From Campylobacteraceae bacterium (GTDB taxonomy: Bacteria; Campylobacterota; Campylobacteria; Campylobacterales; Arcobacteraceae), in NCBI GenBank assembly GCA_013373175.1, contig JABXII010000011.1, positions 1 through 64,000 of the forward strand: a DNA stretch of 64,000 nucleotides, read 5' to 3'. Both the position numbers and the translations under genes were made by a program. The notes under the pieces are model-generated. The model had not been told where the DNA came from. It worked only from the letters and a program-made list of their open reading frames with translations, and searched no databases. Positions 5,804 to 55,477 of this stretch are shown here, piece by piece (position 1 is the first letter of the stretch; each line of letters starts with the position of its first letter).

Positions 5804-8800
5804 TTATTCTCTATGTTTTTTAGATAATTTTGAAACAAGAATAAAGAATAGAGGAATAAATATAATAGCAATAAATGTAGCACTAAGCATTCCTCCAATA
5901 ACTCCTGTACCAATTGAGTGTTTACTAGCTGCTCCTGCTCCACTACTAATTGCAAGTGGTAAAACACCTACTGTAAATGCTAAAGAAGTCATAATAATTG
6001 GTCTTAATCTTACTTTTGCAGCTTCTAAAGCAGCATCGACTAATTTTAATCCTTCTTTTTGTTTTTGAATTGCAAACTCTACAATTAAAATAGCATTTTT
6101 AGCTGCAAGTCCTGCAAGAACTAGAAGTCCTATTTGGAAATAAATATTGTTATCAAGTGCTCTTAAATTAGTTGCTAAAATTGCTCCAAATACTGCAAAT
6201 GGTACAGCAAGAACAACTGAAATAGGAAGTAACCATCTTTCATATAAAGCACATAAAATTAAGAATAAGAAGATAATACCAAATACAAATGCCATGGCTG
6301 AACTTCCACCAACTTGTTTCTCTTGATAAGCAGAACCTGTCCAACTAATAGTGTATCCCTCTGGCAATACTTCTTTAGCTACTTCTTCAATAGCATTTAA
6401 AGCATCCCCTGAACTATATCCATCTGCTGGTTGTCCTGAAACTTTAGCAGCTTGGAAAAGGTTAAATCTTTCAACAATATCAGCTCCAACTACTTTTTTG
6501 TAAGAGATAAATGAGTTTATAGGAAGTAGTTCTCCACTTTTTGATCTAACAAAAATTTCTTTAAAGTCATCAATATTATTTCTATACTCTGAATCAGCTT
6601 GTAAATTTACTCTATATGTTCTTCCATATAAAGAGAAGTCATTTACATAGAAGCTTCCATATGTTGAAGTAATAGTATTGTAAATATCGTTTAGTTTTAC
6701 ACCTTTTGCTTTTGCTTTTGCAACATCAACGTCAATCTTATATTGAGGAATTGTTGCTGATAAAGATGTTCTAACTCCTGTTAATTCAGGTTTTGTTTTT
6801 GCTTTTTCTAATATTTTATTAACTACATTTCCTAAATCTTCAATAGTACCACCTGTTCTATCTTGAACATACATATCAAAACCACCAGTAATACTCATCC
6901 CCATAATTGGAGGAGGAACAACTGCAAAAGAGAAACCTTCACTTGTACCCATAAGTTGTTTAGAAAACTTGTTTAAAAGTGCTTGTGCACCTTGTTCTTC
7001 ATTTGGTCTTTCACTCCAATCTTTAAGTTTAATAATTGTTGCAACTGTATGCGTTCTTTGAGCTGATGTTGTAAAATCATAACCAGCAAGAGTAATGATA
7101 TTTGCAATATTTTCATCTTGTGAAACAATAGCATTTGTTTCTTCTGATAACTCAATAGTTTTTGATAAAGAGTAACCAGGAGGATTAAATCCAAATACGA
7201 AAATTGTACCTTGGTCTTCTTGTGGGATAAGCCCTGTTTTCATAGATTTAAACATATCATATGAAACAAAAATCAGACCACCATAAAGTAAAATAGAAAT
7301 TAGTGAAAATCTAATAGTCTTTTTAACTATAAGTGAATAACCTTTTGTTGCTTTTTCAAACATAGTATTAAACCATTTGAAAAAGCCTTTTGGTTCTTTA
7401 GTTCTATTTCTTAATATTTTTACACATAATGTTGGTGTTAATGTTAAGGCAACAAAACCAGAAATTATTACGGAAATAACAATGGTAATAGCAAACTGTC
7501 TATACATTTCTCCACTTAAACCACCCATAAATGCAACAGGAATAAAGATAGCACAAAGAACTAAGATAATAGCAATCAGGGCTCCTGTAACTTCTTTCAT
7601 TGCAATAAAGGCAGCCTCTTTTGGGGTTTTACCCTCTTCCATGTGACGTTCAACATTTTCAATTACAATAATTGCATCATCAACAACAATACCAATAGCA
7701 AGTACAAGTCCAAATAGTGTTAATAAGTTAATACTAAAACCTAGAATATACATACCTGCAAAGGCACCAACAATTGAAATAGGTACAGCAATAAATGGAA
7801 TAACTGTAGCTCTCCAGTTTTGTAAGAATAGATACATAATTAAAATAACTAAGATTAAAGCTTCAATAAACGTTTTTACAACTTCTTTAATAGAAGCAGA
7901 AATAAAATCAGTACTATCATATGGAATACTATAAGACATGTCTTCAGGGAAGTCTTCTTGAGCTTTTACTAAAGCATCTTTAATAGCATCTGCTGTTTCT
8001 AAGGCATTTGCCCCACTTTGTAAGAAAATACCAATAGGAATAGAAGCTGCATTATTTAATCTTGTTTTAACATTATAATCAGCTGCTCCAAGTTCAATAG
8101 TAGCAACATCTTTTAGTTTTAAACTACTTCCATCTTCATTTGCTCTAATGATAATATCCCCAAACTGTTCAGGGTTTTCAAATCTTTTTGGAGTTTGAAT
8201 AGTATATGTATACATTTGCTTATTTTCAATTGGTTCAGCCGCAATTTTACCAGCTGCATATTGATTATTTTGCTCTTGTATTGCAGAAATTACATCAGTT
8301 GTAGCAAGCGAATATTTAGATAATTTAGTAGGGTCCATCCAAATTCTAATAGAATAATCTTTTGCACCAAAAATTGTTGCATCACCTACTCCGTTTATCC
8401 TTTTTAATGATTCAACCATATTTAAAAGTGCGTAGTTTGATAAGTACACAGAGTCATAAGTATCATTTGGAGATTGAAGCATAATAAACATAAGAATACT
8501 TGGACTTCTTTCCCCTACAACAACACCTTGTCTTTGAACTTGTTCTGGCATTTTTGCTAAGGCTGCTTGAACTCTATTATTTACATCAATTTTTGCAGAA
8601 TCAGGGTCAGTTCCCACTTCAAAGAATACATTAATTCTTAATCTTCCACTATCTTCAGCAACTGAATTCATATAAAGCATATTTTTTGCACCATTGATTT
8701 TCTCTTCCAATGGTGCTGCAACTGTTTTTGCAATAGTGTCTGCACTAGCTCCTGGGTAAGAAGCATTTACAATAATTTGAGGAGGTAAAACTCTTGGGTA

Positions 8801-11315: not shown

Positions 11316-11792
11316 ATGGAAAAAAGATACATAGAAAAATTTTTTGATAATATGAAGCAAAAAGAGGAATATGATATATTTAATATTTCATTGCCTATTA
11401 CATTAATCTATAAGCATAACTACAATAAAAATGAACAACTTTTTAAACAAAAGTATAATTTGATTCATTCTGATTTAGATGTTTTAGCAGCTTTATATTT
11501 CAACGGCAAACAGTTGTCTCCTACGGAACTTTATTCTGCAATAATATTCTCTTCAGGTGGAATGACGAAAGTTCTAAAAAAATTAAAAGCTTTAGGATAT
11601 ATTTCAAGACAAGAAAATATACATGATAAAAGAAGTAAATTAGTTAAATTAGAGAAAAAAGGTGAAGAAGTCTTACTTAGTTGTTTAGATGACCTAATTG
11701 AACAAAAAAATGAGACATACAAATCACTAACAAAAGAAGAAATGGACAGTTTAAAGAAAATCTTGAAAAAGATTTCAATAAACTTATCTTAG
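11316..11792 (+). CDS. MarR-family transcriptional regulator
   Basis: This 158-residue protein has a central winged helix at about residues 45-115: a D-L-D-V-L-A-A-L-Y helix, then L-S-P-T-E-L, then the recognition stretch S-S-G-G-M-T-K-V-L-K-K-L, and a wing with D-K-R-S-K-L-V-K-L, the family signature. Divergent from the efflux operon, it probably represses both the operon and itself through the 11263-11280 palindrome and is released by a small ligand. Its 3' end overlaps the convergent ureG by nine bases, marking the edge of the urease region. Confidence 0.9.
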   Translation: MEKRYIEKFFDNMKQKEEYDIFNISLPITLIYKHNYNKNEQLFKQKYNLIHSDLDVLAALYFNGKQLSPTELYSAIIFSSGGMTKVLKKLKALGYISRQENIHDKRSKLVKLEKKGEEVLLSCLDDLIEQKNETYKSLTKEEMDSLKKILKKISINLS

Positions 11793-12371
11793 TGCTTCAA
11801 TCCAGTCAACAAGCCTTTGTATACTTTGAGGTTCTTTTTTAGAGATAAAAACAGATGGTTTATTTTTTCTGTTTTTCTCAACATCATTTTTAAACTCATC
11901 TAGGTTTACATTTACATATTCACATAGGTCAATTTTATTTGTAACAAGTAAATCACAAAACAATAAACCAGCACCTTTTTTTCTTGGAATATCTGCACCT
12001 TGGGCAACATCAATTACGTAAAGATAATAATCAATTAGTTCATATGAGAAAGTTGCACTTAGATTATCCCCTCCACTTTCAATAAAAATAAACTCAGGGT
12101 TATATTTTTCTTCTAATTCTTCAATTGCCTTTTGATTCATTGAAATATCATCTCTAATTGCAGTATGAGGACAACCACCTGTTTCTACACCAATTATTTG
12201 ATTATCATCTAAATCAAGTTTGCTCTTTAAATAGTTTGCATCTTCTGTTGTATAGATATCATTAGTAACAATTCCTAATGAATATTTATCTTTTAGAAGA
12301 TTTGTTAATGTTTCAATAATCGAAGTTTTACCACTTCCTACTGGTCCTGCGATACCAATTTTAATTGCCAT
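11784..12371 (-). CDS. ureG: urease accessory GTPase UreG
   Basis: UreG uses GTP hydrolysis to deliver nickel to apo-urease in complex with UreF and UreD. In this 195-residue protein the P-loop G-P-V-G-S-G-K-T is at residues 9-16. The metal-binding C-P-H motif is at 67-69, the E-S-G-G-D-N-L switch is near residue 98, and N-K-I-D-L gives guanine specificity. It is the last gene of the ureAB-C-E-F-G cluster, 11 bases after ureF. Its stop overlaps the convergent marR end. Confidence 0.96.
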   Translation of the reverse strand: MAIKIGIAGPVGSGKTSIIETLTNLLKDKYSLGIVTNDIYTTEDANYLKSKLDLDDNQIIGVETGGCPHTAIRDDISMNQKAIEELEEKYNPEFIFIESGGDNLSATFSYELIDYYLYVIDVAQGADIPRKKGAGLLFCDLLVTNKIDLCEYVNVNLDEFKNDVEKNRKNKPSVFISKKEPQSIQRLVDWIEALR

Positions 12372-12382
12372 TTATTTTCCTT

Positions 12383-13072
12383 TTATGTTACGAACATTTT
12401 TGGTTCTAAATTTAAGTGAGAAAAAATAACCTCTTCAAATAAAGGGTTAAAGTTACTTAAGTTTTTTGAACTATTTTTTATTTCTTCTTCTATAATGTCA
12501 TCAAAACTAAAAAGTAGTTGTTGTATTTCACTAGGTTTTATTCTTGAAATTTTTAAACTTGTACTTGCAATATTAATTAAGTTTTTTTTACACCATAAAA
12601 GAAGAAATGTATCTACATCAAGACCTAATTCAAAAGCATAAGCACTTAAGATAAAAAGCTCATTTCCATAGGTTTTCTTATCTTTTACATTTTGAAAATA
12701 CTCTTTTACAATAGGCGAAGTTATATCAAAATCAATATGTTTTAGGTAGTTTTCTCCTAAATCTTTTGAAGCCTTTGCATATTCAAAACTAAACATTGAA
12801 GCATATTTTTCATCTTCTTTTAGTAAGTGAGATATTTTCTTCTTTTTTAAAAGACTAAATACTTTTTTAACAATAGTAAACTCCATCTTTTGATATTGGT
12901 CTTTTATTATATTTTCTAAGAATTTTTTTAAACTATTCTTGTCATGAACATGACCTAATACAATATGTGGTTCAAGTCCAAATGAATGAACAAAAGCCCC
13001 TGATGGAAAGGCTCCATCAAGTAGTTGTAAAAATCTACTTAGTGCTTTAGTGTGAGTGATGTGCGTTTCCAT
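12383..13072 (-). CDS. ureF: urease accessory protein UreF
   Basis: This 229-residue, mainly helical protein has the family's opening L-L-D-G-A-F-P-S-G-A-F-V-H-S-F-G-L-E (about residues 17-34). UreF bridges UreG and UreD in the nickel-insertion complex and gates GTPase activity. Its start lies 26 bases inside the end of ureE, and ureG follows after 11 bases, so translation is likely coupled. Confidence 0.93.
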   Translation of the reverse strand: METHITHTKALSRFLQLLDGAFPSGAFVHSFGLEPHIVLGHVHDKNSLKKFLENIIKDQYQKMEFTIVKKVFSLLKKKKISHLLKEDEKYASMFSFEYAKASKDLGENYLKHIDFDITSPIVKEYFQNVKDKKTYGNELFILSAYAFELGLDVDTFLLLWCKKNLINIASTSLKISRIKPSEIQQLLFSFDDIIEEEIKNSSKNLSNFNPLFEEVIFSHLNLEPKMFVT

Positions 13073-13481
13073 TTGGTTTAAATAGACCTTTACCTTTTTT
13101 TACTGTTACACTATCATTTTCTTCACAAGATTTGATAATATCAGTAGTTGAGATATCTTCTAAAATAGTGATTTTATAATCTTCTACACAAATAGGTTGG
13201 TGTCTATTTCCTATTTCATATGCTGTTCTTGCAAAAGTAATGTGGTCATCAAATTCTAAAGTATAAATTGTATCTTCAGATTTAGAAATTTTAATTTTAT
13301 ATCCATCTTCACAAACTAAAATATCATTTTCATGAAGGTGTGTGTATTTAGCTTTTACGATAAATTCCTTACCCTTTTGAGTAATAGCACTTAAATTAGG
13401 TTTTTGCATATCAAACCAATCTAAAAGTACACTATCATCTGCTTGGATATCTTTTTTTATTTCAATTGCTTTTTTTATCAT
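13047..13481 (-). CDS. ureE: urease accessory nickel-binding protein UreE
   Basis: In this 144-residue protein the N-terminal domain resembles a chaperone-like fold. The metallochaperone domain (about 70-130) contains the G-N-R-H-Q-P motif around residue 92, the conserved interface nickel site. The tail ends in a short histidine-rich H-H-S-H. UreE dimers supply nickel to UreG. The gene sits eight bases after ureC and overlaps ureF by 26 bases. Confidence 0.93.
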   Translation of the reverse strand: MIKKAIEIKKDIQADDSVLLDWFDMQKPNLSAITQKGKEFIVKAKYTHLHENDILVCEDGYKIKISKSEDTIYTLEFDDHITFARTAYEIGNRHQPICVEDYKITILEDISTTDIIKSCEENDSVTVKKGKGLFKPNGNAHHSH

Positions 13482-13489
13482 TCGTACTC

Positions 13490-15193
13490 CTAAAATAGAA
13501 AATATCTTTTAGCCATTGGTAACTCTTCTTGGAAAGATGATTCTATAATCTCACCATTAACTTTTACATCATAAGTTTCAGGGTCAACTTCAATATCCCC
13601 AATAAAGTCATTTAACTTCATATCTTTTTTACCTATATTTCTTGTGTTTTTAACTGCAAGCATAGATTTATTTGTATTCATCTTTTCTACTAAACCATTT
13701 TCCAATGATAATTTAGAAACAAATAGTGCACTTGTATTTGCAGCAGCTTTACCTAAACTTCCAAACATAGGTCTATACATATTTGGTTCAGGGGTTGGAA
13801 TAGAGGCGTTTGAATCCCCCATCATTGCAAGTGCTATAAAGCCACCTTTTATAATAAGTTCTGGTTTTACTCCAAAAAATGCAGGTGTCCAAAGGACTAA
13901 ATCTGCCATTTTCCCAATTTCAACACTTCCAACATGTTCATCAATACCACAAGCAATTGCAGGGTTTATAGTATATTTTGCAACATACCTTTTGATTCTT
14001 TCATTATCAGCTTTTTCATCATCACCTTCTAAAGCACCCCTTTGTTTTTTCATAGAATCTGCTACTTGCCAAGTTCTTGTTACTACTTCTCCTACTCTTC
14101 CCATAGCTTGTGAATCACTACTTGTAATTGAAATTGCTCCAATATCATGTAAAACATCCTCAGCTGCAATTGTATTACCTCTAATTCTACTCTCCGCAAA
14201 GCTTACATCTTCAGGAATTTTTGGACTTAAATGGTGACAAACCATAAGCATATCAAGGTGCTCTTCTATAGTATTTTTTGTATATGGTAAAGTTGGGTTT
14301 GTACTTGATGGTAAAATATTTTCTAAACCAGCTACTTTCATAATATCAGGGGCATGACCACCTCCAGCTCCTTCAGAGTGGAAAGTGTGAATAGTTCTTC
14401 CTCCAAAGGCATTAACTGTATTATCTACAAATCCTGATTCATTTAGTGTATCAGTATGAATTGCAACTTGTACATCAAAATCATCTGCAACTTTTAAACA
14501 AGTATCAATAGCGTTTGGAGTTGTTCCCCAATCTTCATGAAGTTTTAATCCCATAGCTCCTGCTTCAACCTGAACTTTTAAAGCTTCATAGTTTGAACTA
14601 TTTCCTTTCCCCATAAAACCAAAGTTTAAAGGAATATCATCAACAGCTTCAATCATTTTATGGATATTAAATTCACCTGGAGTACAAGTTGTAGCGTTTG
14701 TTCCCGTATTTGGACCGGTTCCTCCACCAATCATAGTAGTAACTCCACTTGCTAGGGCTTCATCTATTTGCCCTGGGCTTATAAAGTGAATGTGTGAATC
14801 TATTCCTCCAGCAGTTATGATTTTTCCCTCAGCTGAAAGAATTTCTGTATTTGCACCTATTTCTAAACCTTCAGTTATACCATCAGTGTTATATGGATTT
14901 CCAGATTTACCTATGGCTGAAATCTTTCCATCTTTTATACCTATATCAGCTTTGTAAATACCTGTATAGTCAATAATCACAGCATTTGTGATGATTAAAT
15001 CAGCAGTTTCAACTGCAAGGGGTGATTGACTCATTCCATCTCTAATTGTTTTACCACCACCAAATTTTGATTCTTCTCCATATGTTGTATAGTCTTTTTC
15101 AATTTTTGCTATTAAAGAAGTATCAGCTAATCTAAATCTATCATTAGTTGTTGGTCCATACATTGAGGCATATTTTGCTTTGGAAATTTTCAT
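13490..15193 (-). CDS. ureC: urease catalytic (alpha) subunit
   Basis: Urease hydrolyses urea to ammonia and carbamate at a dinickel centre in the cytoplasm. This 567-residue protein keeps every catalytic residue, at the same numbers as the Klebsiella enzyme. His134, His136, carbamylated Lys217, His246, His272 and Asp360 bind nickel, and the mobile flap has Cys319-His320. It is therefore expected to be active once nickel is inserted. In Helicobacter nomenclature this subunit is called UreB. It overlaps the fused small-subunit gene by four bases. Accessory ureE, F and G follow, but ureD is about 20 kb away at 35644-36393. Confidence 0.97.
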
Positions 15194-15873
15194 ACTCTAC
15201 TCCCTATAAACTCTTCAAGGTTTTTCATAGCTTTTTCTTTAGTCTCTTTTTCATCAAGGTAACCATTAACAAGACCATTAAATCCTGCAATATATCTTTT
15301 ACCATTGAATGGTACTACTTCTATTTCTTTTGTACTTCCAGGTTCAAACCTCACAGAAGTTCCACTTGGGATATTTAGTCTTTGACCATAAGCTTTTTGC
15401 CTATCAAAATCTAAAAAGGCATTAGTTTCAAAGAAGTGATAGTGAGAACCTACTTGAATAGGTCTATCTCCTACATTTTCTACTTTGATTGTAGTTACAG
15501 GATAATTGGCATTTAGCTCAATTTCACCTTCATCTATAAAATATTCCCCTGGAGTTATGTCGGATTTTGTAACAGAAATAGGGTTATGTACAGTAACAAG
15601 TTTTGTTCCATCATCAAAAGTGGCTTCTGTTTGTACCATATGCATCATTGAAGCAACACCAGGTAATACATCATCTGAACTTAACACCTTCGTAGCATCA
15701 ACCATAAGCTGGGCAACACTTTTACCCTCTCTAGCTCCTTCTAAAATAAATGAACTTATAATTGCATTTGCTTCAGGAAAATTTAGTTTTAATCCTTTTT
15801 CTTTTCTTTCAAGTGCAAGCTTTGAAGCTGTATAAATCATTAATTTTTCTTGTTCACGATTTGTTAAGAACAT
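15190..15873 (-). CDS. ureA: fused urease gamma-beta subunit
   Basis: This 227-residue protein joins the small gamma subunit (residues 1-100, opening L-T-N-R-E-Q-E-K-L) to the beta subunit (from about 105, with P-G-E-Y and [10 protein letters not shown]). This fusion is typical of Helicobacter and Arcobacter. I chose the ATG at 15873, seven bases after AAGGAG, rather than a TTG one codon upstream. It is the first gene of the urease cluster and overlaps ureC by four bases. No ureI urea channel gene lies nearby. Confidence 0.95.
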
Positions 15874-15902
15874 CAAATGTCTCCTTTTTTTATCTTAAAA
15901 AA

Positions 15903-19776: not shown

Positions 19777-20298
19777 TTACTCCCTTATTAAAAGAATTTC
19801 TTTTTCTTCAATGTCATATTCAATACATTCAACAATCTTGTTTTCTTCTTGGTTATAATCTGTTCTATCAATTACAATAAACTCCTCTTTATCCTTTAAG
19901 CAAATTAATGGAAAATGCCATACTCCTCTATTGTAATGAACACCTTGTTTTCCATTTGTTACAAAAGCTTTAAGTGTTGATAAGTCTGGCTTTTCTTCCC
20001 CTAGTGCAACAACACATAAAAATGGTTCTTCACTTCTTGGCATAAAAGTTTGAGAAAAGAATGGATGCTTTTCTAGCATATTTATATGCAGAGGAAATTC
20101 TCTATTCTTTCCTACATAAATATGTAAAGTAGAACTTCCACCTTTTTCATTAGCATCCATTGTGCAAAGTTCATAAAACTTTTGAGCAAAACCATTATTT
20201 ATGATTTTAGAATCTCTATTTTCACAACTTACTACTTCTCCAAATTTTTTAAAAGCTTCTCTTGTAAGGGTTTGTGGTTTTAGCTCTATTTTCATCAT
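19777..20298 (-). CDS. allA: ureidoglycolate lyase, first copy
   Basis: This enzyme splits ureidoglycolate into glyoxylate and urea, the last ureide-specific step. The 173-residue protein shows the cupin-like family motifs: H-P-F-F-S-Q-T-F-M-P near residue 70, with the active-site beta strand, and G-V-H-Y-N-R-G-V-W-H-F-P-L near residue 120. Its ATG overlaps the allantoicase stop by one base, so the two are translationally coupled. A second, clearly homologous copy lies at 36396-36929. Confidence 0.94.
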   Translation of the reverse strand: MMKIELKPQTLTREAFKKFGEVVSCENRDSKIINNGFAQKFYELCTMDANEKGGSSTLHIYVGKNREFPLHINMLEKHPFFSQTFMPRSEEPFLCVVALGEEKPDLSTLKAFVTNGKQGVHYNRGVWHFPLICLKDKEEFIVIDRTDYNQEENKIVECIEYDIEEKEILLIRE

Positions 20299-35643: not shown

Positions 35644-36393
35644 TTACTGTTTTCCTAGATTAAACTCTTTTTTCCCAATATTCTTTCTATATATATTCCA
35701 AAGCTCTTTTTGTTTGTTTTTTATGTCAATCATATCATATGAAGAGATAGAGCCTAAAATAATTTTCTTAGATTTTGAAAAAGTAAATGAGTTAAACCCT
35801 TTATTATGTAAGGTTTTTAAAAACTCTTCATTGTCATTTGTTTTGATATATATTTTTAAGTAGATGTAGTTTTCACTTTCATGGCGTTTTATATACTCTT
35901 TTAAGTCTTCACCTAAAACTTCAAAATTTTCTATGTATTCAAGTTCTTTATTACAATAAAATTTATTTCTTACAAACATAGAATTAAAATCAAAGTGTTC
36001 GTAACTTCTTCCTTGTGTTAGAATATCAGAGTAAAAGAAAGTAGAATTTTCATCAGCATTTATTCTAAATAACTGTAAAAGTTTTGAGTCTTTATATAAG
36101 ATTAGTTCATCATTTAAAACTTCTAAATTAGAGTTTTCTAACTTTATATTTATGTAATTGATTCCAAAATCTTTTTTAGAGGGATAAACTTTAGTAGCTG
36201 ATTCCGTTGTGACTATTGCATTAGAGCTCTCAAGTTTAATATTTGTTTTTATTCTATCATTGGGGAAAATCCCTTCCCCAATACTTAGAAGTTTTACATA
36301 GTTTTCTTCTTCACTAAAGTAGTAATATCGACTAGGAAGTTGTAGCTTATTTAATGAAAATACTTCATTTTTAAAATCTATTGAGATACTCAT
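35644..36393 (-). CDS. ureD: urease accessory protein UreD (UreH), displaced from the urease cluster
   Basis: This 249-residue protein has the UreD core: an I-G-E-G-I-F-P-N-D-R segment near residue 37, then I-V-T-T-E-S-A-T-K-V-Y near residue 58, and L-T-Q-G-R-S-Y-E-H-F-D-F near residue 125. UreD holds apo-urease and the UreF-UreG complex during nickel insertion. No ureD lies with ureAB-C-E-F-G at 11.8-15.9 kb, so this distant copy probably supplies that function. It follows the second ureidoglycolate lyase gene by two bases in a two-gene operon. The family is poorly conserved, so the call rests on these motifs and context. Confidence 0.85.
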   Translation of the reverse strand: MSISIDFKNEVFSLNKLQLPSRYYYFSEEENYVKLLSIGEGIFPNDRIKTNIKLESSNAIVTTESATKVYPSKKDFGINYINIKLENSNLEVLNDELILYKDSKLLQLFRINADENSTFFYSDILTQGRSYEHFDFNSMFVRNKFYCNKELEYIENFEVLGEDLKEYIKRHESENYIYLKIYIKTNDNEEFLKTLHNKGFNSFTFSKSKKIILGSISSYDMIDIKNKQKELWNIYRKNIGKKEFNLGKQ

Positions 36394-36395
36394 TA

Positions 36396-36929
36396 TTAGT
36401 CTCTAACCAAATAAATTTGCTTATCATTTATATTGTGTTCAATACATTCAACTAAGTTTTTCCCTTTTTGCTTTGTACTTACTTTATCTATTACAAAGAA
36501 CTCTTCTTTATCTTTTATGCAAAGTAGTGAAAAATGCCAAGTACCTTTATTAAGAAGGATCCCTTGCTCCCCATTTGTTTCAAATATTTCTAAGGTTGAT
36601 AAATCAGGTTCTCTTCCCCCTAGGGCAACTACACTATAAAAAGGTTCCTTACTCTTTGGCAAAAATGTTTGTGAAAAAAAAGGATGTTTTTCTAACATAT
36701 CTATATGCAAAGGGAATTCTCTTTTTTTACCTATGTATATGTGTAAACTTAAGCTACCACTCTCTTCATTTGAATCCATAATACAAGTTTCAAATTTTTT
36801 TGCATATCCTCTATTTATAATCATAGATTCCATGTCATCTTTTTCTATTACTTCTCCAAATTTTTTGAATGCTTCTTTTGTAAGAGGTTTTGCTTTTATT
36901 TCTATTTTCATATTATATTTTAAACTCAT
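36396..36929 (-). CDS. allA: ureidoglycolate lyase, second copy
   Basis: This 177-residue protein is homologous over its length to the lyase at 19777-20298. Shared blocks include L-T-K-E-A-F-K-K-F-G-E-V, H-P-F-F-S-Q-T-F-L-P and the G-T-W-H-F-S-L segment. It should produce glyoxylate and urea from ureidoglycolate. The His-Tyr-Asn-Arg of the first copy near residue 120 is Leu-Leu-Asn-Lys here, so activity or substrate may differ. An in-frame ATG at 36911 matches the other copy's start better, but neither start has a strong ribosome-binding site. It is co-transcribed with ureD. Confidence 0.9.
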   Translation of the reverse strand: MSLKYNMKIEIKAKPLTKEAFKKFGEVIEKDDMESMIINRGYAKKFETCIMDSNEESGSLSLHIYIGKKREFPLHIDMLEKHPFFSQTFLPKSKEPFYSVVALGGREPDLSTLEIFETNGEQGILLNKGTWHFSLLCIKDKEEFFVIDKVSTKQKGKNLVECIEHNINDKQIYLVRD

Positions 36930-37074
36930 TTTCTTATTTATTTAAATTTAATCCAACTAAAAAATACTTTATTACATCAGTTTATTTATGGTTCTTATTA
37001 GCTGGTTTAAATTTAGATGATAGCATAAGTTCAATTATAATTAGGGTAAGGCTATAGCCCTATTTGTGCATAAA

Positions 37075-37121
37075 AACTATACATTTACTGTATATATAAT
37101 AGACATTTTGAATGTATAGTT
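37075..37121. promoter_or_regulatory. inverted repeat around a -10 box upstream of the TRAP operon
   Basis: AACTATACATT (37075-37085) and AATGTATAGTT (37111-37121) form a perfect 11-bp inverted repeat, with TATAAT at 37095-37100 between them. This looks like a two-half-site operator embracing a promoter. The 315-base gap 36930-37244 also contains a GGCTATAGCC palindrome at 37050-37059 and otherwise shows no gene. Confidence 0.55.
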
Positions 37122-37244
37122 ATTGCTAAAAAATATCTTTACAAAAAACTACCCACGTTATAGAATACGTCTATCAAACATATTTAGATTAATATCATTT
37201 GATGATTCACTCTAAATCTAAATAAAACATAAATAAGGAATAAC

Positions 37245-38342
37245 ATGACTGAAAATAGAAGAAATTTCATAAAGAAAACAGGGTTATTAGGCTTAGGTAC
37301 TGCAGTTGCTGGTCCAAGTATCGCAAATGCAAGTTCTGATAAAAAATTTAGATGGAAGATGACAAACTGTTATGGGGCAGGAGCTCCTTTTTATTCAAAA
37401 GGACCAGGAAGTGCAGAATATTTTTGTAAAAGAATAGAAGAGTTATCAAATGGAAGGTTAAGAATTAAACATTATCCTGCGGGTGAGTTAATCCCTGCAA
37501 TGGAAGGCTTTGATGCAGTTTCAAAAGGAACTATTCAGATGAACTGGGGGAACTCTTTTTTCTGGGCAGGAAAAACATTTGCTGCTCAATACTTTACAGC
37601 AGTACCTTTTGGTATGAACTTCCAAGGTACAAATGCTTGGCTTGAATTTGGTGGAGGACAAGAGTTATGGGATGAAGTTTATAAACCATTTAATGTAATA
37701 GGATTAGCAGCAGGTAACACTGGGGTACAAATGACAGGCTGGTTTAAAAAAGAGATTAATAAAGTTGAAGATTTAAATGGTCTTAGAATGAGAGTTCCTG
37801 GTCTTGCAGGAAAGGTATTAGAACAACTTGGAGTGGGAGTAAAACTTCTTCCTGGTGGTGAGATTTTCCCTGCACTTGAAAGAGGAGTTATTGATGCAGC
37901 TGAATTTGTAGGACCATTCCAAGATAGAAGAATGGGTTTACATAAAGCTGCAAAAAATTATTATACTACAGGATGGGGAGAACCAAGTAATACAACAGAA
38001 TGTCTTATAAATAAAGATGCATGGGAGTCTCTTCCTAAAGATTTAAAAGCTATTGTAAAAAGTGTTGCAGCTGAATGTAATTTAATGGGACTTTCTTGGT
38101 CGGAGGCTAATAACTCTGAAGCATTAAAAGATTTAGTTGAAAATGAAGGAGTTATTGCAAGAACACTTCCTGATTCAGTAATTGAAAAATTAAGAGAAGT
38201 GACTTTCGCTACATATGATAAGCTAACTGCAAAAGATCCTTTAGTTAAAAAAGTTCACGATAGTTATTTTGCCTTTAAAGCAATGCATGATGATTGGCAA
38301 AACAAAAGTGAAGAAGTAGTAATGACTAAGTTGTCGTCATGA
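37245..38342 (+). CDS. TRAP transporter substrate-binding protein (DctP/TakP-like), Tat-type signal
   Basis: In this 365-residue protein the N-terminus R-R-N-F-I-K-K (residues 5-11), followed by a mild hydrophobic stretch ending A-N-A, looks like a twin-arginine signal. Residues around G-L-R-M-R-V-P-G hold the carboxylate-binding Arg. E-R-G-V-I-D-A-A-E-F-V-G-P and the Y-Y-T-T-G-W-G-E-P block match the TakP subgroup, which binds 2-oxo acids such as pyruvate. It feeds the DctQ and DctM proteins encoded next. Oxamate, a pyruvate isostere, is a possible ligand given the hydrolase at 40179. Confidence 0.9.
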   Translation: MTENRRNFIKKTGLLGLGTAVAGPSIANASSDKKFRWKMTNCYGAGAPFYSKGPGSAEYFCKRIEELSNGRLRIKHYPAGELIPAMEGFDAVSKGTIQMNWGNSFFWAGKTFAAQYFTAVPFGMNFQGTNAWLEFGGGQELWDEVYKPFNVIGLAAGNTGVQMTGWFKKEINKVEDLNGLRMRVPGLAGKVLEQLGVGVKLLPGGEIFPALERGVIDAAEFVGPFQDRRMGLHKAAKNYYTTGWGEPSNTTECLINKDAWESLPKDLKAIVKSVAAECNLMGLSWSEANNSEALKDLVENEGVIARTLPDSVIEKLREVTFATYDKLTAKDPLVKKVHDSYFAFKAMHDDWQNKSEEVVMTKLSS

Positions 38343-38848
38343 TTTATGTATTTTTATTCTCAAAAAAGCTAGATACGTTTATAAAACGTATCGGGCAAAT
38401 TAGCTCTTGGCTAATATTTATTTTAGTATTAATGGTTGCAGGAGATGTTCTTCTTAGATATTTTTTTCATATAAGTTCCATAGCAGAACAAGAACTTCAG
38501 TGGCATATTTTAGCAGCAATTGCAATGTTTGGTTCAGCATTTACTTTTCAACAAGGTGAACACGTTAGAGTTGATCTTTTTTACAACAATTATAGTAAAA
38601 AAGTTAAACAATGGATGAATTTTTTAATACCACTATTAATCATAATTCCTTTTTCACTTTTTATTATTTACCTATCAAGTGAATATGTAATGCAGTCTTA
38701 TTCTACAGGTGAAGTGTCTCCTGATCCAGGAGGGTTACCATATAGATATTTAGTTAAATCTTTAATTCCTTTAGGTTTCACACTTATTTTAATCCAAGGT
38801 TTAGCAGTCTTATTAATATCTTTAAGACAAATAAGAAGGGAGAATTAA
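38339..38848 (+). CDS. TRAP transporter small permease (DctQ)
   Basis: This 169-residue protein has four membrane helices, typical for DctQ. The conserved W-H-I-L-A-A-I-A-M-F-G-S-A-F-T-F and E-H-V-R-V-D-L-F-Y segments lie near residues 60-90. Its ATG overlaps the DctP stop by four bases, and DctM follows after three bases. Confidence 0.9.
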   Translation: MIYVFLFSKKLDTFIKRIGQISSWLIFILVLMVAGDVLLRYFFHISSIAEQELQWHILAAIAMFGSAFTFQQGEHVRVDLFYNNYSKKVKQWMNFLIPLLIIIPFSLFIIYLSSEYVMQSYSTGEVSPDPGGLPYRYLVKSLIPLGFTLILIQGLAVLLISLRQIRREN

Positions 38849-38851
38849 TTT

Positions 38852-40177
38852 ATGGATCCACAGATGTTGGCAATATTGATGGTTATATCTTTATTTGGTC
38901 TAATTCTACTAGGAGTTCCTGTTGCCTTTTCAATTGCGGGAGCAGGACTACTATTTGGAGTAATTGGAGCAGATTTAAACTTATTTAATTTATTACCATC
39001 AAGAATTTTTGGAGTACTTACAAACTATACTCTTCTTGCAATACCACTATTTGTTTTTATGGGAATACTTTTGGAAAAATCCCGTTTAGCAGAAAAGATG
39101 TTAGATATTTTAGGTTTACTTTCGGGTAAAAAACCAGGTGGTATGGCAATTGCGATTATTGTTGTTGGTATTTTAATGGGTGCTTCTACTGGTATTGTTG
39201 GTGCAACAGTTGTAACACTTACAATGATAGCTTTACCTACATTATTAAAAAGAAATTATAGCCATAGTGTCTCTTGTGGTACGATATGTGCATCTGGAAC
39301 ATTGGGGCAAATTTTACCTCCAAGTTTAGTTTTAATTTTATTAGCTGATATTAGTGGAGAAGCTATAGGACCTCTATTTGCTGCTGCACTAATGCCTGGA
39401 TTACTTTTAGCAACTTGTTATATTTTATATATTGTTCTTTTAAGTAAATTTGCACCACATCATGTCCCTCCAATTGATAAAGAAGAAAGAGATTCTTATT
39501 CTAGAAAAGAGCTTTGGATTGGGTTTTTTAAATCTGTTGCCCCTCCTTTTCTTTTAATCTTTGCAGTTTTAGGCTCAATTATTGGTGGAATAGCAGCTCC
39601 AACAGAAGCAGCTTCAATGGGAGCTATAGGTTCTTTATTAATAGTGTTTTTTAGTAAAAGATTGAATTTAGAGGTTTTAAAAGAGACTCTTTATGAAACT
39701 ATGAAGGTTACAGGAATGATTATGTTTGTTCTTATTGCCTCTCAAGTTTTTGGACTTAGTTTTAAAGCTTTAGATGGAGACTATTTAGTTGAAGATCTTT
39801 TTGCTGCAATTCCTGGTGGGATGTGGGGATCAATTTTATTTATGATGCTTATTTTATTTGTATTAGGGTTTTTTTTAGAATGGATTGAAATATCATATAT
39901 TGTTTTACCATTGGTATTACCAATATTCCATGCCCTTGATATAGATATGATTTGGCTAGGTATTTTAATTGCTTTAAATTTACAATCATCATTTTTAACC
40001 CCACCCTTTGGTTGGTCTTTATTCTTCTTAAAAGGAGTTGCTCCTAAAGAGATTAAAACAATAGATATATATAAAGGAGTATTACCTTTTATCGCAATAC
40101 AAATCATTGTAATTGCATTAGTGATGATATTCCCTGAAATAGCCCTGTGGCTACCAAAAGTAATAGGATGGATGTAA
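38852..40177 (+). CDS. TRAP transporter large permease (DctM)
   Basis: This 441-residue protein has about twelve helices. It has F-S-I-A-G-A-G near the N-terminus, the family segment G-A-S-T-G-I-V-G-A-T-V-V-T near residue 110 and a matching G-G-I-A-A-P-T-E-A-A-S-M-G-A in the second half. It is the sodium-driven channel of the TRAP system. The gene ends one base before the hydrolase gene, so transport and hydrolysis are probably one operon. Confidence 0.93.
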   Translation: MDPQMLAILMVISLFGLILLGVPVAFSIAGAGLLFGVIGADLNLFNLLPSRIFGVLTNYTLLAIPLFVFMGILLEKSRLAEKMLDILGLLSGKKPGGMAIAIIVVGILMGASTGIVGATVVTLTMIALPTLLKRNYSHSVSCGTICASGTLGQILPPSLVLILLADISGEAIGPLFAAALMPGLLLATCYILYIVLLSKFAPHHVPPIDKEERDSYSRKELWIGFFKSVAPPFLLIFAVLGSIIGGIAAPTEAASMGAIGSLLIVFFSKRLNLEVLKETLYETMKVTGMIMFVLIASQVFGLSFKALDGDYLVEDLFAAIPGGMWGSILFMMLILFVLGFFLEWIEISYIVLPLVLPIFHALDIDMIWLGILIALNLQSSFLTPPFGWSLFFLKGVAPKEIKTIDIYKGVLPFIAIQIIVIALVMIFPEIALWLPKVIGWM

Positions 40178-40178
40178 T

Positions 40179-41774
40179 ATGAATAACTTACCTAAAACAG
40201 AAGTATCAAAAAATGGTATGGTGGTTTCACCACACCATTGTGCCTCAGATGCAGGATTAGAAATATTAAAACAAGGGGGAAATGCAATTGAAGCTTCAAT
40301 CGCAGTTGCCTCATCTTTAGCAGTACACTATCCACATATGACGGGAATTGGTGGAGATGCCTTTTGGTTGATTTACGACCCTGAAGAGGGAGTTAGTTTT
40401 ATTGAAGCTTCTGGATTCTCTGGCTTTGATGTAAATATGAGTGCTTATGAAGGTTTAGATTCTATTCCTTTTAGGGGAAGATTAGCTGCCAATAGTGTCG
40501 CAGGAGCAGTTTCTGCATGGGATTTAGCATATGAAAAAAGTAAAAAAGAGTGGAATGGGAAATTTTCCTCTTCAAAGCTTGTAGATGAAGCAGTGACTTC
40601 AGCAACAAATGGAATTATAGTTACCGAATCTTTATCTCAAACACTAGAGGAGAAAAAAGATGAATTAATAGTTGATTCTTATTTTGCGAGTATCTATTAT
40701 CCAAAGGGAAAGATACCTCAAAAAGGAGAGACTCTTATTCAAAAGAAATTAGGTGCAACACTAAAAACACTAGGAGAAAATGGTTATGACGACTTTTATA
40801 GGGGAGATTTATCTAAAAAAATTGCTGAAGACTTTAAACAAAGAGATGGATTAATTACTATAAAAGATTTAAATGAACATCATGCTTCTTGGAATAAAGC
40901 TTTAGAAATGAAAACAAGTAATGCCAAACTGTTTAATGCTTCAGCTCCAACTCAAGGTGTTGCTTCACTTATGATTTTAGGTTTATTTGACAGATGGGTA
41001 GAAAAACTACCACAAAAAGATTCTACAAATCATGTTCATTTATTAGTAGAGGCTACTAAAATTGCCTTTAGACATAGAGATAAAATGAATACTGCTGCCA
41101 CAGCTGAAGAGCTTCAAGCTTGGCTTGAACCTGAATATCTTGATAAATTAAGTAAAGAGATAGATTTAGAAAAAGCTTTACCTTGGGGAGAAAATGCAGC
41201 ACCAGGTGATACAACTTGGTTTGGTGCAATAGATTCTAAAGGTAGAGTTGTAAGTGCTATTCAAAGTATTTATCATGAGTTTGGAAGTGGATTAACCTTG
41301 CCAGAAACTGGTATTGTTTGGCAAAATAGAGGTTGTAGTTTTGCTTTAGACTCATCTCATATTCAAGCTTTAGAACCACACAAAAAACCTTTCCATACCT
41401 TAAACCCTGCAATTGCATTGTTTGATGATGGAAGAGTGATGGCTTATGGAACTATGGGTGGAGATGGACAACCACAAACTCAAGCAGCAATCTTTTCTAG
41501 ATATACTTACTACAATGAAGATTTGCAAACTTGTATAAATAATCCTAGATGGCTTTTAGGAAGAACTTGGGGTAATTCCTCTCAAAGTTTAAAACTAGAA
41601 TCTAGATTTGATGAAGAGTTAATTAATGAATTAAAAGCTAAAGGTCATGATGTGGAAGTTTTATCAGCATTAGATTCGGCTGTTGGTCACGCAGGAGCTT
41701 TAGTTTATGATACATCAAAAACAATAAAAGGGGCATTTGACCCAAGAAGTGATGGTAAGGCATCAAGTTTTTAA
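40179..41774 (+). CDS. gamma-glutamyltransferase-family Ntn hydrolase, oxamate-amidohydrolase (HpxW)-like
   Basis: In this 531-residue protein the GGT fold signature L-K-Q-G-G-N-A-I-E-A-S-I-A is near residue 30 and the autoprocessing site is D-T-T-W-F-G-A-I-D with probable nucleophile Thr345. Trp replaces the His of classical T-T-H motifs, and the later I-Y-H-E-F-G-S-G and W-Q-N-R-G blocks resemble HpxW of the Klebsiella uric-acid cluster, which hydrolyses oxamate to oxalate and ammonia. No signal peptide is visible, so it is cytoplasmic, unlike periplasmic GGT. Glutathione or another gamma-glutamyl amide remains possible as substrate. Confidence 0.8.
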   Translation: MNNLPKTEVSKNGMVVSPHHCASDAGLEILKQGGNAIEASIAVASSLAVHYPHMTGIGGDAFWLIYDPEEGVSFIEASGFSGFDVNMSAYEGLDSIPFRGRLAANSVAGAVSAWDLAYEKSKKEWNGKFSSSKLVDEAVTSATNGIIVTESLSQTLEEKKDELIVDSYFASIYYPKGKIPQKGETLIQKKLGATLKTLGENGYDDFYRGDLSKKIAEDFKQRDGLITIKDLNEHHASWNKALEMKTSNAKLFNASAPTQGVASLMILGLFDRWVEKLPQKDSTNHVHLLVEATKIAFRHRDKMNTAATAEELQAWLEPEYLDKLSKEIDLEKALPWGENAAPGDTTWFGAIDSKGRVVSAIQSIYHEFGSGLTLPETGIVWQNRGCSFALDSSHIQALEPHKKPFHTLNPAIALFDDGRVMAYGTMGGDGQPQTQAAIFSRYTYYNEDLQTCINNPRWLLGRTWGNSSQSLKLESRFDEELINELKAKGHDVEVLSALDSAVGHAGALVYDTSKTIKGAFDPRSDGKASSF

Positions 41775-41790
41775 ATAAGGATAAAAATTT

Positions 41791-42597
41791 ATGAATGAAT
41801 TATTAGTATTAGTCCCAATTTTGTTGGCAAGTGGCGTAGTAGCTGGCTTGCTTGCAGGATTACTTGGTGTTGGTGGAGGAATTGTAATTGTTCCTATGCT
41901 TTATCATATATTTATCTATATGAATATTGATATCTCAATTGCAATGCCTTTAGCTATTGGTACATCTTTATCAACTATTGTTGTTACTTCAATAATTTCT
42001 GCACGTTCTCATCATAAAAAAGGTGGAATTGACTGGGAGTTATCAAAAAGATGGATTCCTTTTGTAATAATTGGAGTTTTAATAGGTGCCTTTTCCTCTA
42101 AATTTATAGATGGTACAAACTTAAAATTTATGTTTGGTATTTTACTTCTAGTTGTATCTCTTAATATGATTATTAGTAGTTTTAAAAATCTTGTAATAGC
42201 TGATTGTCTTCCTGGTAGGTTCGGGCAATCTATTTTTGCAACTTTACTTGGAGGCTTTGCTTCTTTGTTAGGTATTGGTGGGGGAACTTTGATGGTTCCA
42301 TTGTTATCACTATTTTCTTTTCCAATTCACAGAGCTGTTAGTACAGCTTCACTATTTGGTTTGATTATTAGTGTGCCGGCAACAATTGGATATATTATTG
42401 TTGGATGGAATGTAGAAAACCTTCCTTTAGCATCAACTGGATATGTTAATTGGTTAGCTTTTATAGTACTTGTACCTATGACAATGTTTTTTGCACCTTA
42501 TGGGGTGAAGCTAGCATATAAACTAAATGTAAAACAACTAAAACTTGCTTTTGCAATCTTTTTATGTTGTGTGGGAATTAAAATGGTATTGGTTTAA
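41791..42597 (+). CDS. TauE/SafE-family anion transporter
   Basis: This 268-residue protein has seven to eight helices in two repeats, each with the family glycine motif: L-L-G-V-G-G-G-I-V-I-V-P near residue 25 and L-L-G-I-G-G-G-T-L-M-V-P near residue 165. Members export sulfite, sulfoacetate or other organic anions. It follows the GGT-family hydrolase by 16 bases, so it may export that enzyme's acid product; this is inference. A strong bidirectional terminator follows. Confidence 0.87.
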   Translation: MNELLVLVPILLASGVVAGLLAGLLGVGGGIVIVPMLYHIFIYMNIDISIAMPLAIGTSLSTIVVTSIISARSHHKKGGIDWELSKRWIPFVIIGVLIGAFSSKFIDGTNLKFMFGILLLVVSLNMIISSFKNLVIADCLPGRFGQSIFATLLGGFASLLGIGGGTLMVPLLSLFSFPIHRAVSTASLFGLIISVPATIGYIIVGWNVENLPLASTGYVNWLAFIVLVPMTMFFAPYGVKLAYKLNVKQLKLAFAIFLCCVGIKMVLV

Positions 42598-52813: not shown

Positions 52814-55477
52814 ATGGGTTATATTTTTAAGTGTTTTGTATTAATTATTTTTCTGTGTTCTTTTTGCTTTGGTAGAAGTGATAATCTATTTACAAAAAGT
52901 GAACTTACCTATATTGATAAAAACCCTGTAATAAAAATTGCAATGTTAAATAACTTTGAACCCTTTTCCTATGAATTTAGAAATAAACATAAAGGTTTTT
53001 CTTTAGATATTTTAAAAAGAGTAGAAGAGATAAGTGGCTTAAGGTTTAATATTCAAACTTCAAGATGGGCTGATGCTTTATCAAGTTTCAAAGAAAAAGA
53101 AGTAGATTTAATATCAGATATCTCTTATACTGATGAAAGATCAAAATATGCCATATACACAAGCCCTTATTATGAAATCCCAACTTTTATATTTGGATTA
53201 AAATCAAACCTTGAATATAAAGATAATAAAAGTCTAATAGGCAAAACTGTTGCTGTTTCAAGAAGTACTTTTTATATTAATCAATTAAAAAAGCTTGGTA
53301 TAAAAGTTTTAGAATTAGATACAAGTTTTGAAAAAGCTCAAGCTGTGATTACTGGAAAAGCAGACTATTTCCTAGCTTCATATACTACAGGTCAAAAAGC
53401 AATAAGTGATAATACCTTTTATACTTTAAAAGTACATGGGGAATTTACAACTATAAAAAAAGAAGATTTAAGGTTTGCAGCCCACAAAGACAATGTTATT
53501 TTAAGAGATATAATAGAAAAATCTTTAGATAAGATTGAAAGAGAAGAACTCTCTTATTTAGCTAAAAAATGGATAAATAATAGGTTTGATAATCAAATAA
53601 GTTTTACAGATGAGGAATTGTCTTTTATCAAAGCTAATCCAATAATAAAATATAGTGAAGTAGATTGGAAGCCTTTATCTATTATTGAAGATAATAAGAT
53701 GAAAGGTATTATGGGAGAGTATTTAGATTTTGTAGCAAAAAGAACAGGCTTGAATTTTGAGTTTGTTCCTTCAAAATCTTGGCCCCATGTTTTACAACAG
53801 TTTAAAGAAGGAAAAATTGACTTAGTTCCAGGAGTTGGCTCAAGTCCTCAAGAAAGAGAATTAGGTTTAAGCTCAATTAGATATGCAAAATATCCACTAG
53901 TAATCATAACTGATGATAGATATACTTATTTAGATAATTTATTTGATTTAAAAGATGCAGTAGTTGCAGTACCCAAATCTTATACAAGTTATAACTTAAT
54001 AGTTAAAAACTATCCTAATATAAAACTTCTAGTAACTGAAGATATTCCTGAAGCCCTAATTGCTGTTGAAAATGGAAAAGCAGATGCCTTTGTTGGGCAC
54101 ATTGCAACTTCTTTATATCATATTTCCGAATTACATTTAAATAATCTAAAAGTAGCTGGAACAACAGGCTTTGATATAGAACATCACTATTTAATACAAA
54201 AAGATATGCCTTTATTGTTATCAATAGTCAATAAAGCTTTTAACTCTATAACGTTAGAAGAAAGAAAAGATATAAATGCGAATTGGATTCAAACTACAGT
54301 TGTTGAAGAGAAGACTGATTATAAGTTGGTATTTTTAGTTTTCTTTATTTTTATTATTATCATAGCAGTGTTTATTTATAGACAAAATATACTAAAAAAA
54401 TATAATCAAAGGCTAAAAGATTCATACTCTGATATGCAAAGTATCATGAACTCTACAATGGAAGCTATATTAATTACAGAAAATAGAAAATGTATAGAGG
54501 TAAATGATTCTGCAGTTAAACTTTTTGGTTATTCTTCAAAAGAGGAGATGATAGGGCAAGACTTATTAAACTTTATCTCAAAAAATAATAGAAACTTAGT
54601 AAAGAAAAAAATAAAAAGTACAGTAAAAGACCCATATGAGTTAGAAATTCTAACTGAAAATAGAACAAATATAAAAGCCTTAGGGAAGGGTGTAAATCTA
54701 AGACTTAGTGGAAAAGATGTAAGAATCTCTTCAATTATCGATATTACTGATATTAAAAACAAAGAGAAACTTTTAATTGAACAATCTAAAATGGCAGCCT
54801 TAGGTGAAATGATTGGTCATATTGCCCATCAATGGAGACAACCTTTAAGTGTAATAACAGTAATTACAACAAGTTGGGAAGTCTATGATGAATTAGGAAT
54901 TTTTGATAAAGAAAAGGTTTTAGAAGAGGGGAAATTGATTTTATCAAATGCTAAATACTTGTCTCAAACTATAGATGATTTTAGGCACTTTATAAAAGGT
55001 GAAAACTCGTCATCTGAGTTTAATATTAAAGATTTAGTTGATAATTTAATAAGATTACTAAGCCCTTCTATTCACAATGAGCAGATAACTTTAGTTTTAG
55101 AGAATAATATAGATAGGCAATTATTAGGTGGACAAAACAATATTCTGCAAGCTTTAATAAATGTAGTAAACAATTCTATTGATGCCCTAAGACAAAAACA
55201 AGAAGATAAACTAATAGTTTTAGAAGTAAAAGAAAATAAAAATAAAAGAATCCAAATTATTATAAAAGATAATGGTGGAGGAATAAGTGAAAAGATTATT
55301 AATAAAGTCTTTGAACCATATTTTACTACAAAACACCAATCCCAAGGAACTGGGCTTGGTTTATATATGACATATAGTATTTTAGAAAAAGCAAATGCTT
55401 CTATAGAAGCAAAGAACTGTAAATTTATCCATAATCAAAAAGAGTATAAGGGTGTTATGTTTACTATTACTTTTTAG
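52814..55477 (+). CDS. histidine kinase with two periplasmic SBP family 3 sensor domains and a PAS domain
   Basis: This 887-residue protein has a signal peptide (about 20 residues), then two tandem amino-acid-binding-protein-like domains (about 30-255 and 265-495), each with a G-F-S-L-D-I or G-I-M-G-E-Y-like ligand lobe opening. One membrane helix lies at about 505-527, a PAS domain at about 535-640, a HisKA domain with the phylum-typical G-H-I-A-H-Q-W-R-Q-P-L, and an HATPase ending G-T-G-L-G-L. It should sense a periplasmic small molecule, probably an amino acid. No dedicated regulator follows; the OmpR protein encoded 52 bases upstream is the likeliest partner. Confidence 0.92.
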   Translation: MGYIFKCFVLIIFLCSFCFGRSDNLFTKSELTYIDKNPVIKIAMLNNFEPFSYEFRNKHKGFSLDILKRVEEISGLRFNIQTSRWADALSSFKEKEVDLISDISYTDERSKYAIYTSPYYEIPTFIFGLKSNLEYKDNKSLIGKTVAVSRSTFYINQLKKLGIKVLELDTSFEKAQAVITGKADYFLASYTTGQKAISDNTFYTLKVHGEFTTIKKEDLRFAAHKDNVILRDIIEKSLDKIEREELSYLAKKWINNRFDNQISFTDEELSFIKANPIIKYSEVDWKPLSIIEDNKMKGIMGEYLDFVAKRTGLNFEFVPSKSWPHVLQQFKEGKIDLVPGVGSSPQERELGLSSIRYAKYPLVIITDDRYTYLDNLFDLKDAVVAVPKSYTSYNLIVKNYPNIKLLVTEDIPEALIAVENGKADAFVGHIATSLYHISELHLNNLKVAGTTGFDIEHHYLIQKDMPLLLSIVNKAFNSITLEERKDINANWIQTTVVEEKTDYKLVFLVFFIFIIIIAVFIYRQNILKKYNQRLKDSYSDMQSIMNSTMEAILITENRKCIEVNDSAVKLFGYSSKEEMIGQDLLNFISKNNRNLVKKKIKSTVKDPYELEILTENRTNIKALGKGVNLRLSGKDVRISSIIDITDIKNKEKLLIEQSKMAALGEMIGHIAHQWRQPLSVITVITTSWEVYDELGIFDKEKVLEEGKLILSNAKYLSQTIDDFRHFIKGENSSSEFNIKDLVDNLIRLLSPSIHNEQITLVLENNIDRQLLGGQNNILQALINVVNNSIDALRQKQEDKLIVLEVKENKNKRIQIIIKDNGGGISEKIINKVFEPYFTTKHQSQGTGLGLYMTYSILEKANASIEAKNCKFIHNQKEYKGVMFTITF

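Follow-up and report, generated by a model that had tools for sequence, protein, structure and literature searches.

The amidohydrolase HpxW is described as acting on oxamate (PMC5270733, citing Hicks and Ealick 2016), and the same source likens YwrD of B. subtilis to it; its misreading as a gamma-glutamyltransferase (GGT) is already in print (PMC3560190), papers cited by PMC number being represented here and below by excerpts. In E. coli, 19.5 mM allantoin was turned into 17.7 mM oxamate, which was called a dead-end product (PMC11326118). Conversion of about 80% of allantoin to oxamate was reported in another paper, which used culture supernatants as samples for high-performance liquid chromatography and calls oxamate an effective inhibitor of lactate dehydrogenase (LDH; PMC8550087). 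Among the binding proteins of tripartite ATP-independent periplasmic (TRAP) transporters, TakP contacts pyruvate through Arg177, Tyr100, Glu214, Glu240, Gln156 and the backbone at residue 215, in a rather hydrophobic cavity lined by positions 40, 47, 97, 99, 153, 212, 213, 243 and 245 that is described as admitting only chains of similar length (PMC1839085). No bacterial oxamate transporter was found among the open-licence papers listed for oxamate transport, degradation and nitrogen use, and the one listed paper that names both oxamate and a TRAP transporter treats them, in the excerpts available, as separate matters. Here we describe a five-gene operon in a stretch of 64,000 nucleotides from a Campylobacteraceae bacterium of the family Arcobacteraceae (assembly GCA_013373175.1, contig JABXII010000011.1, positions 1 to 64,000; hereafter the window). 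It encodes a TRAP transporter, an HpxW-type hydrolase and a TauE-type membrane protein, and we consider it somewhat more probable than not that the operon serves to scavenge oxamate or a closely similar amide of a 2-oxo acid.

The operon lies on the forward strand and comprises dctP for the TRAP solute-binding protein (37245-38342; open reading frame (ORF) with Pfam DctP at 6e-56), dctQ for the small permease subunit (38339-38848; ORF with Pfam DctQ at 4e-22), dctM for the large permease subunit (38852-40177; Pfam DctM at 1e-82, TIGR00786 over its cut-off), the gene of an HpxW-type N-terminal nucleophile (Ntn) amidohydrolase (40179-41774; Pfam G_glu_transpept at 1e-117, clade and active-site residues) and tauE for a TauE/SafE-family membrane protein, the proposed oxalate exporter (41791-42597; Pfam TauE at 3e-53). 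The first two genes overlap by 4 bp and the later gaps measure 3, 1 and 16 bp. Gene coordinates and Pfam matches for all five agree with an earlier note on this DNA, which had described the genes as packed with gaps of at most 16 bp. That note had proposed import of oxamate, its hydrolysis to oxalate and ammonia and export of the oxalate; overall this interpretation is partly supported, being strengthened by the class of the hydrolase, the head group and pocket of DctP, the surrounding gene island and the absence of AllG. Gene order, membership of the HpxW clade, active-site letters, the pocket signature and the genomic context were established here by computation, whereas the identity of the substrate, its uptake and what TauE carries, and which way, are inferred. 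DctP would bind periplasmic oxamate via its carboxylate and 2-oxo group with an arginine, a glutamine, two glutamates and a cation, while a polar pocket would surround the amide. DctQ and DctM would import the compound, driven by an ion gradient, and a cytoplasmic, self-cleaved HpxW-type enzyme would split it into ammonia, which would be assimilated, and oxalate, which TauE would remove.

Judged by its sequence, the hydrolase belongs to the HpxW type and would act on oxamate. Its closest solved match is 5HFT (48% identity over 526 residues, 47% in the tree alignment), which is labelled gamma-glutamyltranspeptidase in the structure match listing and which we take to be the HpxW of Klebsiella, an oxamate amidohydrolase; identity to E. 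coli GGT amounts to 27%. In the alignment, the motif GD/TTWFG stands where E. coli GGT has QTTHYS. In a tree of 28 hand-picked rows (24 earlier rows and four further ones), the 22 HpxW-type rows, including the window protein and 5HFT, form one clade (support 100/99), outside which lie E. coli GGT, 2NLZ, 2I3O and a GGT of Skermanella. A quick tree of 101 rows, one of 102 (L021) having been dropped for poor overlap, is concordant, with an HpxW clade of 95 rows at a support of 94 and of 96 rows with locus L042 at 100. The earlier note had read D-T-T-W in place of T-T-H, had likened the hydrolase to HpxW and had suggested a phylogeny against HpxW and classical GGT; the motif was right, and the protein groups with HpxW and apart from GGT. 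T391, W393, S409, R430, H462, T463, G483 and G484 (E. coli GGT numbering) are present in all 95 clade rows. The GGT residues R114, N411, Q430, D433 and S462 are all replaced both in the window protein and in 5HFT; Arg114, Asn411, Asp433 and Ser462, which bind the gamma-glutamyl group in canonical GGT, are Ser, Tyr, Ser and His in the window protein. R430, Y411 and H462 alone have no power to separate HpxW, as they also occur in 2NLZ and 2I3O, and it is Trp393 together with the tree that separates HpxW from the wider GGT-like group. Self-cleavage is predicted before Thr345, where the small chain of 5HFT starts, and the enzyme is probably cytoplasmic, since no signal peptide is visible on inspection by eye. 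No other GGT-family gene was found in the window's own genome. The 5HFT protein itself falls together with enterobacterial genes (L110, L120) whose neighbours include genes of the purine pathway.

DctP has an N-terminal twin-arginine-like signal, RR-x-FIK. The closest solved match of the protein is 7UG8, labelled 'ketoacid-binding protein', with TakP/SmoM (2HZK) ranking within the first six; given these matches and the conserved head-group residues, its previously suggested likeness to the 2-oxo-acid TakP group holds. Q156, R177, E214 and E240 are found in 48 of 48 compared sequences. These sequences comprise 18 HpxW-linked DctP proteins, which form a single clade and hence not 18 independent cases, and 30 TakP-type proteins, namely 20 family paralogues, five Polynucleobacter-type proteins and one from SAR116 (these six HpxW-linked), and four solved proteins. 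Y40, Y47, N97 and F100 occur in 18/18 linked proteins versus 0/30 of the TakP type. Position 215 is Phe in all 18 and in one of the 30 (7UG8), and at position 245 all 18 have Thr or Ser, whereas the 30 have Tyr, Leu, Ile, Val or Met. At position 243, 16 of the linked proteins have Asn and two have Thr. The hallmark of TakP, the Tyr100 bond together with a hydrophobic side pocket, is missing from all 18. The clade of linked proteins (support 100/100) also holds an exception from Skermanella (L127), which was counted in neither set and has Y40, N97, F100 and N243 but T47 and G245. With the head-group residues kept and polar residues at positions 40, 47, 97 and 245, the site would fit oxamate, which combines the head group of a 2-oxo acid with a tail that is polar and not greasy.

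The five-gene order is not due to chance, because it is conserved within the family. Of 104 same-family genomes, the window's own included, 14 carry a hydrolase orthologue of at least 74% identity, and 11 of these, again including our own, have all five genes in the same order. In all 14, tauE follows the hydrolase gene. Within the family DctP has 11 orthologues with identities of 86% or more, all adjoining the hydrolase, the next proteins among the matches listed having at most 39% identity, and TakP-type paralogues with 32-39% identity to DctP are present in the window's own genome and in relatives. One locus (L035) has a shortened dctQ-dctM fusion (7107-8492) and no dctP in the stretch examined, and two others have hydrolase and tauE only. 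These three TRAP-deficient loci (L035, L036 and L037) belong to one genus (g15) and retain hydrolase and tauE. In place of the TRAP genes, L036 and L037 carry upstream of the hydrolase a PALP-family gene in divergent orientation and a YheO-like regulator (by Pfam in L036, by eye in L037). Among 397 genomes sampled evenly across the phylum, nine gave matches, all from the same family (eight orthologues and a relative in genome G003), a confinement that would fit acquisition from Pseudomonadota. The G003 relative (in L042) is 42% identical, is the sister of the HpxW clade and also has Trp393. A TauE-family gene immediately precedes it (8471-11149 of L042), and no TRAP gene was seen near it in that locus; its signal-like N-terminus makes a periplasmic version of the enzyme possible.

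The cassette recurs in other bacterial classes, a point that was absent from the earlier note. We compared 80 named HpxW loci, the best 80 of 583 confirmed rather than a random draw (45-52% identity), of which 79 belong to Pseudomonadota and one to an 'uncultured bacterium'. Their neighbours were sorted into BLAST clusters labelled by hand, of which representatives were checked against Pfam or NCBIfam, and all counts are lower bounds because several contigs end close to the HpxW gene. TRAP genes adjoin HpxW in 13 of the 80 loci (L049 in divergent orientation, the other 12 pointing the same way as HpxW), SBF-type transporters are near it in seven and TauE in two. A cluster of the major facilitator superfamily (MFS) is near it in nine, and four out of four scored members pass the cut-off of the oxalate/formate antiporter model TIGR04259; in AP028202, the annotation places hpxW and oxlT next to each other. 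In 15 of the 80 loci HpxW has purine-type clusters (aminotransferase, M20, PuuE, HIUase, OHCU) in its vicinity, including L067 and L088, where this context consists of the aminotransferase alone, a cluster that passed no NCBIfam cut-off. Two Marinobacterium loci (L075 and L097) have the order dctPQM-tauE-hpxW. A plasmid collection yielded 106 records with a DctP relative, two of them with at least 58% identity, and the plasmid CP049029 of Rhodobacteraceae bacterium SC52 carries the exact order dctP-dctQ-dctM-GGT-tauE, with a hydrolase inside the HpxW clade.

The surroundings of the operon, which the earlier note did not mention, strengthen the oxamate reading, since profile searches of the window proteins revealed an island for purine nitrogen use that includes allantoin and urea genes; the GC content of the window is about 30%. 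Allantoicase and the allantoinase PuuE both score over their model cut-offs. A ureidoglycolate lyase family gene lies beside the allantoicase gene (19777-20298, minus strand, by family match), and the island further contains a malate synthase G gene, a protein of the Asp/Glu/hydantoin-racemase family and an NCS1 transporter whose nearest model is allantoin permease, at a score under that model's cut-off. Urease subunits are encoded at 13490-15876 on the minus strand, with UreF and a UreG-like protein in the same stretch (11784-15876). The urease accessory gene ureD (35644-36393, minus strand) lies some 20 kb from them, adjoining allA just before the operon, and is found on the other side of the operon in a relative (L038). 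Genes of a urea ABC transporter directly follow the operon, UrtA being over its cut-off and the rest named by position and by eye. A few kb past them, a histidine kinase (52814-55477, plus strand) has family-3 solute-binding domains (SBP_bac_3) at its N-terminus, along with PAS and HATPase_c. Allantoicase occurs in 16 of the 104 family genomes, nine of them among the 14 that carry HpxW (Fisher p = 6e-6, kinship of the genomes being ignored), and the operon does not depend on an allantoicase route of its own, since five HpxW genomes lack the enzyme. No paper on Arcobacter and allantoin was found by title in the open-licence literature. AllG, a subunit of the E. coli enzyme forming oxamate from oxalurate, was looked for in all 104 genomes and found in none, with a positive E. 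coli control and other oxamate sources outside this search. Oxamate is therefore more likely to come from outside, with enteric bacteria fermenting allantoin as a likely source.

Several observations weigh against this interpretation. Concerning the pocket, Phe100 loses the hydroxyl group and hence the hydrogen bond by which Tyr100 of TakP holds the carboxylate, Thr243 is also found in 11 of the 30 TakP-type proteins, and the five Polynucleobacter-type TRAPs and the one of SAR116 have a TakP-like pocket despite being HpxW-linked. On a plasmid of Skermanella mucosa (L127), dctQM-dctP adjoins a GGT outside the HpxW clade (His393, 27% identity), and since the DctP there belongs to the same clade, the TRAP transporter need not be specific for oxamate. 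An intact TRAP transporter is missing beside hydrolase and tauE in 3 of the 14 family genomes, and allA stands beside dctP in two genomes without allantoicase (G057 and G067). TauE proteins are known for sulfur compounds, and weaker matches to the oxalyl-CoA decarboxylase model occur in 103 of the 104 genomes, the best in our own reaching 245 bits against a cut-off of 739; these are presumably other thiamine enzymes. To our knowledge, HpxW activity has been described for one enzyme only, and no protein of either subgroup, TRAP or TauE, is known to us to have been characterised biochemically.

The part of TauE admits the strongest alternative, which is compatible with the other readings. The protein matches PF01925 with 181.5 bits (cut-off 32.6), and cassette TauE proteins of three groups are 40-49% identical to one another and 19-27% identical to two non-cassette TauE proteins. 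Its role as oxalate exporter is suggested by position, that is, by the HpxW-linked TauE subgroup and the antiporters neighbouring HpxW elsewhere. Oxalyl-CoA decarboxylase over the cut-off was found by profile search in none of the 104 family genomes, and no bicupin oxalate decarboxylase was found in our own genome, other oxalate routes, such as oxalate oxidoreductase or formyl-CoA transferase, being outside this search; together with the oxalate-type antiporters near HpxW in other bacteria, this makes export of oxalate plausible. Alternatively, TauE might import the substrate or move something else, such as a sulfur compound, as the family name, which refers to sulfite export, would suggest, and the three genomes that keep hydrolase and tauE without an intact TRAP look as if TauE could take over uptake there. 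However, tauE accompanies the hydrolase in all 14 genomes, also beside the TRAP genes, where a second importer would be redundant, and the antiporter-type MFS cluster in nine of the 80 other loci speaks for an exporter, so that we regard this alternative as doubtful, if still worth serious consideration.

Somewhat less probable, and in our view unlikely, is an import of oxalurate or ureidoglycolate by the TRAP transporter, with AllA serving the latter and the hydrolase cleaving the amide of that or a related compound instead of oxamate. The allA-like ureidoglycolate lyase gene (36396-36929, minus strand, by Pfam), which is associated with the operon and not proven part of it, is divergently oriented next to dctP in eight of the 11 complete cassettes, the window included, and its position at dctP in the two genomes without allantoicase is a hint of further cargo, ureidoglycolate or oxalurate. 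A polar pocket could suit a ureido group too, and the HpxW clade is large, with one characterised enzyme as far as we know. On the other hand, no allA was seen near HpxW among the BLAST clusters of the 80 named loci, several of which are truncated. Moreover, the TakP cavity is said to fit only chains of similar length (PMC1839085), and oxamate is the substrate of the closest enzyme with a characterised activity (PMC5270733). The intergenic region between dctP and allA (36930-37244) holds the AT-rich block AAAATATCTTTACAAAAA at 37130-37147. The first 16 letters of this block occur upstream of dctP in 8 of 10 loci of TRAP-bearing relatives (L029-L034, L038 and L039), exactly once in each, whereas the remaining 141 of 149 loci lack them. 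The block is also present where allA is absent (L033) and may be a promoter or operator, while no recognised regulator site was found in the intergenic comparison of family loci.

A general importer of pyruvate and other 2-oxo acids, beside a hydrolase that only clears the LDH inhibitor oxamate after its co-import or formation inside the cell, appears quite improbable. DctP is TakP-like with intact head-group residues, and oxamate is an isostere of pyruvate and an effective inhibitor of LDH (PMC8550087). This explanation is at odds with the TakP-type paralogues already present in the genome and its relatives, with the distinct pocket of the linked DctP clade and with the absence of AllG, a helper of internal oxamate formation. 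As to a glutathione hydrolase (gamma-glutamyltransferase) next to an unrelated transporter, the hydrolase does match the GGT family in Pfam and NCBIfam, though its TIGR00066 score of 338.6 bits is under the curated cut-off of 357.85, and this identity is rejected on the basis of the HpxW clade and the replacements at the gamma-glutamyl sites, with the conserved TRAP context and the lack of a visible signal peptide leaving it practically no probability.

If scavenging of oxamate is true, the reading of HpxW as a gamma-glutamyltransferase would be a misannotation corrected by reading the operon, a nitrogen loop between makers and users of oxamate would be closed, and a residue signature for oxamate-binding TRAP proteins as well as a cargo for a TauE subgroup would be at hand. 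More tentatively, and at a little short of even chances, we propose the operon as the first dedicated system for scavenging oxamate, in which a TRAP transporter with a novel specificity, an amidase of the HpxW type and a TauE oxalate exporter move together between bacterial classes and let urease-positive allantoin users live on dead-end nitrogen waste of enterobacteria that ferment allantoin.

Compared with known systems, the hydrolase shares with Klebsiella HpxW (5HFT) the nucleophile context GD/T-x-W, the clade and 48% identity, and the two are identical at the gamma-glutamyl sites of GGT except at position 433 (Ser in the window protein, Ala in 5HFT). With E. coli GGT it has the Pfam family and the aligned catalytic Thr in common, while R114, N411, Q430, D433 and S462 differ. 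HpxW of Klebsiella oxytoca sits in the hpx operon (PMC3560190), in contrast to the association with TRAP and TauE described here. The hpxWXYZ context was not found, the flanks being TRAP, TauE, allA, ureD and urea-transport genes, and no members of the amidase cluster were among the BLAST clusters of 13 family loci (L029-L041). TakP/SmoM (2HZK), 7UG8, 4PET and 4YZZ are 36-40% identical to DctP and have Arg177, Gln156, Glu214 and Glu240 in common with it, whereas TakP-type proteins differ from the linked DctP at positions 40, 47, 97, 100, 215 (7UG8 excepted) and 245. Finally, the OxlT-type antiporter (TIGR04259) that lies near HpxW elsewhere, and that would export oxalate, is a major facilitator, whereas the corresponding place is taken here by a protein of the TauE/SafE family.

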